64,000 nucleotides of DNA, from the NCBI GenBank assembly GCA_036504445.1, contig DASXVE010000024.1:124001-188000 (forward strand), in the 5' to 3' direction. The notes beneath the pieces were generated by a model. It made no database searches, was not told the DNA's origin, and worked only from the letters and a program-made list of their open reading frames with translations. The position numbers and the translations under genes are program-made. The DNA comes from Candidatus Aquicultor sp. Its GTDB lineage: Bacteria > Actinomycetota > Aquicultoria > Aquicultorales > Aquicultoraceae. Positions 23,153 through 57,682 of this stretch are shown here, one piece after another (within the stretch, counting starts at the first letter, position 1; each line of letters starts with the position of its first letter).

Positions 23153-24784
23153 CTAACCGACCTGGAACTTGAGAACTCTGTTATGCTCCGGTTCAATCAC
23201 GTGAACCGCACAAGCCATTCACGGGTCGAACGTGTGCACAACCCGCAGTATCTCAAGCGGCTTCGTTGGGTCCACAACCGGCATACCGACGAGTGCTTCT
23301 TCGACTGGGCCGCGAACGCCCTTGTCATCGCGTGGGCTCAAATTCCAGTTCGACGCCGGAACCGCCGCGTAAGCGCCGATCTTACCGTTCGCGATTCTCA
23401 TATAGTGCGAAAGCGCACCGCGCGGAGCATCCCAGGCGCCTACACCCGTACCGGTGCTCGGAACCGCCTTATCGGTAAATACATCGGTCTTACCGGCTTT
23501 GACGTTATTGAGAAGATCATTGCTCCAGCGAACAGCGTTATCCGCATTAATCTTGGCCTTTATAACACGAGCCGCGATACGGCCGAGATTCGACATCAAA
23601 AGATCGACCCTGCCCGGTACGCCGAGCGTCTTGAGCGTTGAATCCACCAGCGTCTTGGCTTCCGGCCGCCCGGCAAGATATGAAACGAGCACCTGGGCGA
23701 GCGGCCCGACTTCCATCGGGCGATTGTCGCTGCCATAGCGGGCTGCCTGCGTCCAATCGTACTTCTTAACGGGAAGAGCTTTGCCTTCAAGCGGCGGGAG
23801 TGCCGGGTCTTTCTGGAACAACTCTTGACCCGCATCGAGCGGGTGTTTACCGGCGCCTTGGCTGTCGGCATAGAACGAGCTCTTGGTAAACATCTTTACC
23901 TGATCCGGATCGACTTTCTCAAGCGCTAGTTTCCGATCAAAAATCGCGCCCCGCGGGAAGAGCCTGTCCTCCGGATTTTGGCTTGCCTCATCGAGAACAC
24001 CCCATGATAAATAATTGCCAACACCCTGGCCGTTGGTCGCCAGGTCTTTATAGAATGGTGCAATCGTCAACAGATCGGGCAACATAACGCTATCGATGAA
24101 GGTCTGAATATCTTGCATCGCGGTTTGGTAGGAGATAATATCCTCTACCCGAGGAAGCATCGTCACCCCGCCCGCCGCGTTATTCATAATCATTGGAAAC
24201 TTGCCGCCCATAAGCGCCGTTGCCTCGTTTGCCCGCTGCTGTATCTCGATAGACGAAAGATAGTGCGCTGTGAGTTCGAGATCAAGCTCGGCCGGCAGTT
24301 TATACGCCGGATGATCCCAGAACATATTTGCAAACGGCCCGAGTTGTCCGGATTTCACGACCGCCATAACCCGGTCCTGGACCGCTTTTAGCGCCGGTGT
24401 TGCCGCTTTGGCGTTGAGCGCGTTGGGCACATTAACGTAATCGAACGCATTGAGGATATAGAACCAGAGGATATGATCGTACGCGATCTGGGCCGCTTCC
24501 ATCATGTTGCGGACCAGGCGCGCGTTGTCCGTTACTTTCTCGATACCCATGGCATGCTCGGCTGCCATAGCGGATGCGGTCCCGTGCGGTGTCGGGCAAA
24601 CACCGCAGATTCTCTGTGCGAAATGCCACGAGTCGCGCGGGTCGCGACCCTTCATGAATATCTCAAATCCCCGGAAGAGGGTGGCGGTGTTCCACGCATC
24701 GGTCACTTTCCCGTTTTCTACAACCGCAGTTATGCGCAGATGCCCCTCGATTCTCGTAACTGGATCGATAACTACTTTTGCCAT
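23153..24784 (-). CDS. [NiFeSe] hydrogenase large subunit, selenocysteine-containing
   Basis: Reading stops formally at a TGA (23219-23221) after 521 residues, but the same frame continues MACAVHVIEPEHNRVLKFQVG to TAG at 23153. The TGA therefore replaces the first cysteine of the C-terminal Ni-binding motif DPCxxCxxH, giving DP-U-MACAVH; residue 522 of 543 would be selenocysteine. The N-terminal Ni motif RICGVCPTPHG is intact, as are HLRITAVVENG, GPFANMFWDHP and DAPRGALSHY. The 15 residues after the histidine are the usual cleaved extension. A SECIS-like hairpin follows the TGA. The start overlaps the small-subunit stop (TAATG). A truncation at the TGA would remove two Ni ligands, which makes a true stop very unlikely given the conserved sequence behind it. 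Confidence 0.88.
23181..23213 (-). promoter_or_regulatory. Candidate bacterial SECIS element after the hydrogenase TGA
   Basis: On the minus strand CGGTTCA (23208-23202) pairs with TGAACCG (23195-23189) around the loop CGTGAT (23201-23196). A lower stem TTGTG/CATAA (with a G-T pair) extends it across a 3-base bulge. The loop begins 17 bases after the TGA and has G in its second position, which fits the general rules for bacterial SECIS hairpins (loop about 16-37 bases after UGA with a G among the first two loop bases). The fold was judged by eye, without energy calculation. Confidence 0.65.
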
Positions 24785-35849: not shown

Positions 35850-36689
35850 TTAAGGGGCTAAGCCGCGCACGAAAGCCAGGTTCGCTTTGATGGCGCCGTC
35901 TTCACGCCCCGGCAGCTCAAGTACTTTGGGAACATTTACGAAATGACGGTCAGTCAGTAACGCACGAAACATATCAAGCCCGATTTCACCTTCACCGACA
36001 TACGCATGGCGGTCATGATGCGAACCAAGCTTCGTTTTGGAATCGTTTATATGCACGACTCCTATCGCATCAAGGCCGACGGATTCATCGAAACGGCGCG
36101 TTACCTGCTCGTACCCACCGGTCCCCGAGATATCGTACCCGGCAGCAAAAACGTGCGCCACGTCGAAGCATACGCCCACGTGGCTTCGGCTTTCGATACC
36201 CTGCAGAATCTCGGCGAGCTCATCAAATGTAGAACCAAGGACCGATCCCTGCCCCGCCATTGTCTCAATAAGAATTATCGGTGAATGCGTACCGGCATCC
36301 GCCAGGACGGTATTCAGCGCCTCGATAACCCGCTGTACCCCATCGGCCCTGCTCGTACCGCGCGCGCTCCCGGGATGCAATATCAGCAACGGTACTTCGA
36401 GTTCCACCGCTGTTTGTATCTCGGCGTGCAGCCGGTTGACCGACTTTTGCCACATCGCAGGTTCCGGCGACGCCACATTTACCAAAAACGGAACATGCGA
36501 GATTACTTGTTTTACATTGCTTGTGCGCCATGCCTGCAAGAAAGCTAACCGCGCCTCTTCCGAGAGGCGCGGTGTATCCCAGCGCCGGGACATAGTTAGA
36601 TAAATCTGCAGGCACTCGCATCCCCAATCGGCGGCGTATTTAAAAGCGTTGTGCAAGCCACCTATGGTGGGAACAGTTGCTCCGAGCAT
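35850..36689 (-). CDS. nfo: Endonuclease IV (AP endonuclease)
   Basis: A 279-residue AP endonuclease that cuts 5' of abasic sites in base excision repair. Family motifs: FLVNVASPEPAMWQKSVNRL, LLILHPGSARGTSRADGVQRV (first metal histidine), IILIETMAGQGSVLGSTFDEL (metal glutamate), VGVCFDVAHVFAAGYDI (aspartate and histidine ligands), VVHINDSKTKLGSHHDRHAYVGEGEIG and VLELPG for ELP-type end. AAGGGA precedes the start. Ligand set appears complete. Confidence 0.93.
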   Translation of the reverse strand: MLGATVPTIGGLHNAFKYAADWGCECLQIYLTMSRRWDTPRLSEEARLAFLQAWRTSNVKQVISHVPFLVNVASPEPAMWQKSVNRLHAEIQTAVELEVPLLILHPGSARGTSRADGVQRVIEALNTVLADAGTHSPIILIETMAGQGSVLGSTFDELAEILQGIESRSHVGVCFDVAHVFAAGYDISGTGGYEQVTRRFDESVGLDAIGVVHINDSKTKLGSHHDRHAYVGEGEIGLDMFRALLTDRHFVNVPKVLELPGREDGAIKANLAFVRGLAP

Positions 36690-36731: not shown

Positions 36732-37382
36732 CTACTTCAATAAACTCTGCACGTTGCGATCGAGCATTGCTTTGCTGCACGAGCCGACAATCTTCTTTAC
36801 CGTTGCGCCGTTTTTATTCACGAAGAAGAGTGTCGGCACGCCGTCTATCTTAGTCGTCTTGAGCATGGCTTTGCCCGCTTTTGTATCGATATCGTAGATC
36901 GCAAACGGGATTCGCTCTGAATAAGTCGCTTTTGCCTTCTCCACGAGAGGCTTCGTCTCCGCGCACGACGGTCACCAGTTCGCAGTAAACACAATCACCT
37001 TCGGACCCCGATCAAGACGCTTGAGTGCCGCTTTCGCGTTGCTGTGGCGAGGGTTGAACTTCACGGCTTCCCGATATTTACTTGCGGCCACCACATATTT
37101 CTTGAGCCCCTCATACGATGTGCCAAGCTGATAATAGAGATTGGCGTTGTTTTTGAGTAGCTTAACCGCTTTAGTAAAATTCGTAACTGCCTTAGCGTAA
37201 TTCTTCTGCTTGTTCATGACAACGCCCTGGTTATATAGAGCCAACCCTTGTTTTGTCGAAGCCGAAACTGATGCCGCACGCGCCGTCGGCGGTTTTGAGA
37301 TAAGAGGCGCCGGTAATTGCAGCGAAAAACTTGTGATAATAAAGAGGGCTACTAGAGTAGCCGTAGTTCGGATGTGTTTCAT
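36732..37382 (-). CDS. Exported TPR-thioredoxin protein with a putative selenocysteine (UxxC)
   Basis: A frame of 217 codons interrupted by one TGA at 36972-36974. The ATG at 37382 follows a perfect AAGGAG. The signal peptide (MKHIRTTATLVALFIITSFS, cleavage near ARA-A) is followed by two TPR repeats (ALYNQGVVMNKQKNYAKAVTNF and LYYQLGTSYEGLKKYVVAA) and a thioredoxin domain: VIVFTANW-U-PSCAETKPLVEKA, then IDGVPTLFFVNKNG with the cis-proline. The TGA stands exactly for the first cysteine of WCxxC, giving residue 137 of 216 as selenocysteine. Downstream sequence is fully conserved, so a nonsense mutation is unlikely. It probably acts as a thiol oxidoreductase outside the membrane. Confidence 0.82.
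36934..36963 (-). promoter_or_regulatory. Candidate SECIS hairpins after the thioredoxin TGA
   Basis: Two mutually exclusive hairpins are possible. One pairs CGCG(G)AGA with TCTCGTG around a CGAAGCC loop beginning 17 bases after the TGA (one bulged G, one G-T pair). The other pairs GCCTCTC with GAG(A)AGGC around a GTG loop beginning 28 bases after it. Both satisfy the general spacing and G-in-loop rule. Judged by eye only. Confidence 0.45.
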
Positions 37383-37488
37383 AGGGTTCTCCTTTGCAGT
37401 AAACGGTATTACTGTAATTCGACCTTCGAATACAATACCACAGGGCTTATAAGCTGGCAAAACCGATGGATCGCCATACGAAGGCAGG

Positions 37489-56951: not shown

Positions 56952-57536
56952 TTACGGTGGCGGCAGTGTGGGATGGGTTCGCACGAAATCCGCCGGATGG
57001 CACGTATTGCATTTCGTGGAAGCATCTTCGCTTCGTTTATGGCAATCAATGCAAACCGACATCTTGATTCAGGTCCGATATCCATTGAATACCCCGTGGC
57101 TGATCCTGTTGTGGCAATACGCGCAGGTGAGGCCCTCCTCAAGGTGTTGCGGGTGCACAAAGATGAGCGTTTTGGTCGTTACGCGTGCCGGGGGCTTATG
57201 GCATGGCGTGCAAACAGATGACGGCATCGTCTTACTAAGCTGACTGTCCTTGTTTATCGGTTTCTGGTATGTGTTCGTAAAATGATAGTAGACCTCGCTC
57301 AGCGCCTGTACCTTACTGATAACAAAATTAACCGGCCGCGGGTTAAGATAGCACGCTTCACAATCGACTTTACTGTGAAAGGAAACTCGCCAGGCATTAT
57401 AGCCGCTGTTCATCTCGTGGCATGTGTTGCAAAAGCGTGGGTTCGATGTCGCAAACATAGCGGTGACAAGAAGCGCAACAACCACGACAATTACACTACC
57501 TACGATTACTAGTAGACGGCGTGAGCCAGATTTCAT
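56952..57536 (-). pseudogene. Multiheme c-type cytochrome (NapC/NirT-like) with two damaging changes
   Basis: The 195-codon frame starts with a membrane anchor (LLVIVGSVIVVVVALLVTAMF) and contains six heme-type motifs: CNTCH, CEACY, CTPCH, CAYCH, and after an in-frame TGA (57069-57071) CIDCH and CNTCH. NapC/NirT cytochromes pass electrons from quinol to periplasmic reductases. The second motif has Tyr (TAT) for the haem-ligating His (CAT). The TGA stands between GYRT and IKMSVCIDCH, where an ordinary residue such as Arg (CGA) would be expected. Both changes are single C-to-T transitions, so a decaying gene is likelier than recoding. GTGAGG precedes the start. Confidence 0.75.
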
Positions 57537-57682
57537 ATAGCGACCTCACGGGATTAAAGTTACTTATTTTTTACCCAAAACTGCGAAACGCAAAGCGCTT
57601 GTATTGTTTGTTGCCGGGCGGAAAGCTAGGTGCCCGTCAAAGAAAAATGCTGGTAACCATGCTGTGTGCTAGAGGCACAAAG

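Follow-up and report, generated by a model that had tools for sequence, protein, structure and literature searches.

A predicted TPR-thioredoxin selenoprotein exported by Candidatus Aquicultor, with a tentative link to cytochrome c maturation

The 64,000-nucleotide stretch of the Candidatus Aquicultor sp. genome analysed here (the window; contig DASXVE010000024.1, positions 124,001 to 188,000) contains a gene that almost certainly encodes a selenoprotein, with selenocysteine (Sec) predicted at the attacking position of a thioredoxin active site. Four independent lines of evidence agree on Sec at this codon: the Sec machinery of the genome, homologues that carry a TGA at the same site, a hairpin past the codon, and other TGA-containing genes in which the TGA falls at known Sec sites. 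Taken as a whole, the best explanation, and one that we hold to be likely, is that of an exported Sec-dependent thiol-disulfide reductase docked through its TPR repeats, for which apocytochromes c would be the likeliest group of clients.

Results

A single reading frame is interrupted by one TGA

The initial annotation gave the coordinates of the gene correctly but left its strand unstated. Its coding strand is the minus strand, from 37382 to 36732 (Table 1), and translation of the plus strand over the same interval was rejected as meaningless. When TGA is translated as Sec (U), a single frame of 216 residues with one TGA and a normal stop is obtained, the product of which reads MKHIRTTATLVALFIITSFSLQL...TARAASVSAS...(TPR)...PKVIVFTANW-U-PSC-AETKPLVEKA...DGVPTLFF...LLK-stop. 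This translation bears out the earlier description of a thioredoxin domain that is interrupted by TGA directly after FTANW and whose frame continues intact to the stop. Past the TGA, the coding log-odds is +0.22 per codon in the gene's frame, whereas the two alternative frames give -0.42 and -0.13.

The layout of signal peptide, TPR and thioredoxin that had been proposed for this protein is also upheld, with the signal peptide predicted by reading the sequence and both domains identified by Pfam in the read-through protein: TPR_2 (3.3e-11, 42.8 bits, cut-off 27) and Thioredoxin (PF00085, residues 124-212; 2.1e-14, 53.8 bits, cut-off 23.5). In the AlphaFold2 model the thioredoxin domain has a pLDDT >90, and its Foldseek matches are thioredoxins. 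The helices of the TPR region span residues 41-58, 62-76, 90-109 and 113-123, with a confidence below that of the thioredoxin domain, while the signal-peptide segment is disordered and of low confidence.

The gene is flanked by an erythromycin-esterase-like gene and by nfo, which starts 42 nt past its stop and is possibly co-transcribed with it. A scan of the window against Rfam at gathering scores returned no matches.

Table 1. Features of the TPR-thioredoxin gene and its downstream neighbour (positions in the window).
Feature	Position	Strand	Basis
Complete predicted selenoprotein gene, exported TPR-thioredoxin, 216 aa, one Sec (U137)	36732..37382	-	translation with TGA=U; Pfam
Shine-Dalgarno-like AAGGAG (AAAGGAG), few bases 5' of ATG at 37382	37389..37394	-	sequence
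Predicted N-terminal signal peptide, h-region ATLVALFIITSFSL, possible cleavage after ARA/ARAA	37272..37382	-	read from sequence
Two TPR repeats and capping helix, about aa 45-120	37023..37250	-	Pfam, model helices
Thioredoxin domain, aa 124-212	36747..37013	-	Pfam, AlphaFold2, Foldseek
Predicted Sec codon UGA, position 1 of W-U-P-S-C	36972..36974	-	same site in 26 further homologous domains
Resolving Cys140 of U-P-S-C	36963..36965	-	invariant in thioredoxin alignment A4
SECIS-type hairpin GCCUCUC-GUG-GAGA(A)GGC, apical loop GUG 27 nt past UGA	36934..36951	-	fold, covariation
cis-Pro183 of the thioredoxin fold	36834..36836	-	invariant in thioredoxin alignment A4
nfo (deoxyribonuclease IV), downstream neighbour	35850..36689	-	NCBIfam TIGR00587, 263 bits

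The genome encodes a complete Sec machinery

In this genome, which is 100% complete and comprises 34 contigs, selA, selB, selD and a tRNA-Sec gene (76.6 bits, UCA anticodon) all occur in one cluster, and SelD itself contains a TGA, its active site being SGUAAKMGPG. The initial annotation had argued for a Sec-decoding host and had called for a search for selABCD. Its claim is supported by this gene cluster, and also by the 26 homologues with a TGA at the same site and the covarying hairpin described below.

In-frame TGA codons also occur in other genes. A group-1 NiFe hydrogenase large subunit in the window (23153-24784, minus strand) has a TGA at 23221..23219 within HTFDP-U-MACAVH, followed by a C-terminal stretch of 22 residues, and scores 506 bits against NF033181 (cut-off 600). 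Judged from its sequence, this enzyme is a [NiFeSe]-type selenoprotein, and it is most likely the other gene with a TGA at a catalytic cysteine to which the initial annotation had referred. Elsewhere in the genome, a peroxiredoxin carries SPV-U-TSE (G000:C32:41894; L057) and a thioredoxin-like protein carries FWTYS-U-INC (G000:C9:19577-19825; L060). A NapC/NirT-type multiheme cytochrome in the window (56955-57563, minus strand) has an in-frame TGA near 57069, in RT-U-IKMSVCIDCHK, with two heme motifs after it; because no Cys is aligned with this codon in a related gene, a nonsense mutation or an error is likelier here than Sec.

A second tRNA-Sec-like tRNA is encoded on contig C9 (G000:C9:6865-6955, plus strand; L003 1501-1595). 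It matches RF01852 at 50.7 bits, above the cut-off, and has a GCA (Cys) anticodon, U73 and an encoded CCA, a normal tRNA-Cys being encoded separately on contig C3. This tRNA looks like a selC* tRNA-Cys (PMC7609411), and GCA tRNAs of the same selC*-like kind were found by ARAGORN at 12 further loci of the class, each in a different genome; this lineage is not named in the list of phyla given by that review.

Sec-thioredoxins form a family with a conserved hairpin

Across the class and phylum there are 27 distinct thioredoxin domains of this kind, that of the window included, each with one in-frame TGA that is always the first residue of UxxC. The placement of the TGA at this residue only, in all 27, substantiates the earlier proposal that it takes the place of the attacking Cys of WCxxC. 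Alignment A4 covers the thioredoxin domain only, with the TPR part excluded. In the tree, one branch parts the Sec from the Cys domains (support 84/61, based on a small number of columns). The window gene and the second Sec-thioredoxin of its genome come out as a pair (90/58, with long branches).

Sec-thioredoxins are common in this lineage and occur in many genomes of the class; most of them are small lipoproteins or membrane-anchored proteins. One cluster conserved in the family consists of trxA, a Sec-thioredoxin lipoprotein and a CsoR-type repressor (for example L042, 2709-4287), preceded by genes for a flavin reductase and a cytochrome c, and it is also found on contig C3 of the host genome. 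Since the family orthologue of the Sec-thioredoxin sits in this trxA/CsoR cluster, on C3 as well, the window gene is an extra paralogue.

The bSECIS model describes a hairpin whose loop lies 16-37 nt past the UGA and has a G at its first or second position (PMC13188914), and the window gene agrees with it in both loop (GUG) and distance (27 nt). For the analysis of covariation, the 51 nt 3' of each UGA were aligned without gaps in 26 sequences. The family hairpin pairs columns 27-30 with 34-37 and has a lower extension at columns 24-26. Its loop reads GUN, the G and U being invariant, and lies 26-27 nt past the UGA. Compensatory pairs are found at both 27:37 (CG 11, GC 10, UA 3) and 28:36 (AU 12, CG 10, GC 2), and the covariation score of the hairpin is 0.63, compared with 0.17 in shuffled versions, none of 500 reaching the observed value, and with 0.19 or less when the hairpin is slid. 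In canonical trxA sequences, taken from these genomes and a small number of additional ones, these two pairs form in 11% and 0%, respectively.

Fold energies are -6.5 kcal/mol for the minimal hairpin and -12.4 kcal/mol for a 44-nt element, the published limit being at most -7.5. Relative to synonymous recodings the stability of the window hairpin is not unusual (P = 0.38); for all 27 genes the same test gives a median P of 0.08, with 12 at or below 0.05. Because the window hairpin is not significant by itself, the evidence for a SECIS element is that of covariation across the family. This hairpin also shapes the protein, in that the Leu or Ile before a conserved Val and the Glu or Asp after it co-vary with preservation of the stem, L-V-E and I-V-D alternating in a way that keeps the RNA stem.

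The fusion of a Sec-thioredoxin to TPR repeats appears to be new

Thioredoxins with UxxC are an already listed selenoprotein family (PMC13188914, PMC9312934), and proteins with TPR and thioredoxin but without Sec are known (CnoX and plant TDX); the new element is a Sec-thioredoxin fused to TPR. The initial annotation did not recognise this architecture as a described one, and as far as can be tested it is indeed new: among 396 genomes of the phylum (36 of the class), only this one has TPR and thioredoxin in a single frame, and the term TPR is absent from the 2026 inventory of prokaryotic selenoproteins (PMC13188914). Literature searches for a TPR selenoprotein found none, and a search with the full protein against 85,000 named genomes, which possibly do not include the window's own record, gave plain Bacteroidota thioredoxins and nothing else. 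In another family of the phylum (genome G204), a probably membrane-anchored protein joins a rhodanese, in place of TPR, to a similar Sec-thioredoxin domain (L082, 1468-2070, minus strand; YTDW-U-PTC-RKMAPVVDRL), which suggests that the Sec-thioredoxin module is prone to fusion.

Plant TDX has its domains in the order TPR then thioredoxin. OsTDX (PMC6471494) resembles the window protein in combining these domains, but it is eukaryotic, uses Cys and has another TPR set. CnoX/YbbN (PMC8129009) likewise holds thioredoxin and TPR in one protein; however, it is cytosolic, has thioredoxin first and TPR last, carries SxxC or CxxC and has no Sec. The bacterial selenoprotein thioredoxins (PF00085, UxxC; PMC13188914, PMC9312934) share with the window protein the thioredoxin fold, Sec for the attacking Cys and a bSECIS past the UGA, but whereas those of the TrxA type are cytosolic, the window protein is predicted to be exported, has U-P-x-C and carries its thioredoxin domain behind two TPRs. 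Membership in CnoX was rejected on the reversed domain order and the predicted signal peptide, and SaoT and TsoB were rejected on score (NF040730, 17.1 versus 65; NF045694, 22.2 versus 805).

In E. coli CcmG the active site is WCPTC. The window protein was rejected as a member of CcmG/DsbE (TIGR00385, 20.1 bits against a cut-off of 123), from which it differs also in having Sec rather than Cys and in being encoded outside the ccm cluster. System I comprises an exported thioredoxin reductant, CcmG/DsbE, and a TPR apocytochrome binder, CcmI/NrfG (PMC3601427), and the functions of these two could share one chain in the window protein.

Relatives of the TPR segment are encoded beside multiheme cytochromes

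The best matches of the TPR segment are membrane-anchored TPR proteins of 222-252 residues, the closest being in a sister genome at 42% identity. In one family (f1) the genes for these parent proteins adjoin an NHL propeller gene and, in several genomes, multiheme cytochromes as well; in other families of the class they adjoin cytochromes with 9 or 14 CxxCH motifs. A conserved locus with a membrane TPR protein and an NHL propeller (L114, L115, L117 and L118), which in L114 and L118 includes multiheme cytochrome-like proteins, is possibly an extracellular cytochrome assembly system. PF23914 (CcmH/CycH TPR) scores 26.7-40.2 bits on the parent TPR proteins, below its cut-off of 42, and does not match the TPRs of the window protein.

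The ccm cluster of the genome (L121; G000:C25:213000-229500) encodes CcmA, B, C, E and F and a second CcmC-like protein beside heme biosynthesis genes. CcmG, CcmH and CcmI were not found in this cluster, no CcmH was detected genome-wide by Pfam, and an AhpC-TSA search of the genome returned no CcmG-like Cys protein. The CcmE of this genome ends in CPSKY, and a CPSKY CcmE marks cytochrome c maturation System I*, which has been described as having no CcmG and often no CcmH (PMC3601427). System II was rejected because the sole ResB match is the CcmF gene. The exported thioredoxins that were found in the genome are Sec proteins, and a CcdA-like (DsbD_TM) gene on contig C29 adjoins NapC-type cytochromes. 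The TPR-thioredoxin gene showed no genetic linkage to ccm genes or to genes for cytochromes.

Discussion

Proposed function and alternative explanations

We propose that the signal peptide directs export of the protein, which would act outside the cytoplasm. With the UGA read as Sec, the selenolate of U137 would attack client disulfides and C140 would resolve the resulting selenenylsulfide. Cytoplasmic TrxA would supply the reducing power, relayed to the Sec-thioredoxin by a membrane carrier of the CcdA type (the DsbD_TM protein of C29), and the TPR pair would dock the thioredoxin domain on client or membrane partners. That the protein is an exported thiol-disulfide reductase is quite probable. 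Apocytochromes as its clients are a more doubtful proposition, suggested by the TPR family encoded beside multiheme cytochromes and by a ccm cluster that lacks CcmG and CcmH. It is unlikely, though conceivable, that exported Sec-thioredoxins serve System I* as its missing reductant of apocytochrome c, and that the window gene joins such a reductant, in a single selenoprotein, to a TPR adaptor for multiheme cytochromes that resembles CcmI/NrfG.

A selenoprotein of broader purpose has nearly an even chance of being correct: a general exported thiol-disulfide or peroxide reductase, active in oxidative-stress defence or as the reductant for exported peroxidases or Msr, whose TPRs would serve oligomerisation or membrane docking with no special cytochrome link. 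Sec-thioredoxin lipoproteins in many genomes of the class irrespective of a TPR partner, the setting between trxA and a CsoR-type repressor in the family, which suggests redox or sulfur/metal stress, and the Sec-peroxiredoxin of the same genome all speak for such a role, whereas the TPR part is specifically like the TPR protein encoded by multiheme cytochromes. The relatives of the TPRs, being cytochrome-linked rather than YbbN-like, also weigh against a CnoX-like chaperedoxin, in which TPR would have holdase activity towards unfolded exported proteins while thioredoxin would shield their cysteines through mixed (seleno)disulfides. Both domain types are as in CnoX (PMC8129009), but the opposite domain order, the presence of only two TPRs, the signal peptide and the Sec active site make this reading improbable.

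Least probable by far, and in our estimation barely credible, is a pseudogene, namely a Cys gene in which the TGA arose by nonsense mutation or by an error of sequencing and from which only the TPR part is made. The window's NapC-type cytochrome gene, with an in-frame TGA that is not aligned with Cys, lends this idea some substance; it is opposed by the TGA at the same residue in 27 homologous domains, the covarying hairpin, the full Sec machinery and the undamaged frame past the TGA.

Implications

Automatic annotation would stop at the UGA and report a short TPR protein, so exported Sec-thioredoxins are probably mis-annotated throughout this lineage. As for the organism, the TPR-Sec-thioredoxin that we favour may assist in the preparation of the cell's many heme proteins. 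If the link to cytochromes is true, the thiol reductant that System I* uses in cytochrome-rich anaerobes would have a candidate open to testing, and the same link would provide a reason for the expenditure of selenium outside the cytoplasm.
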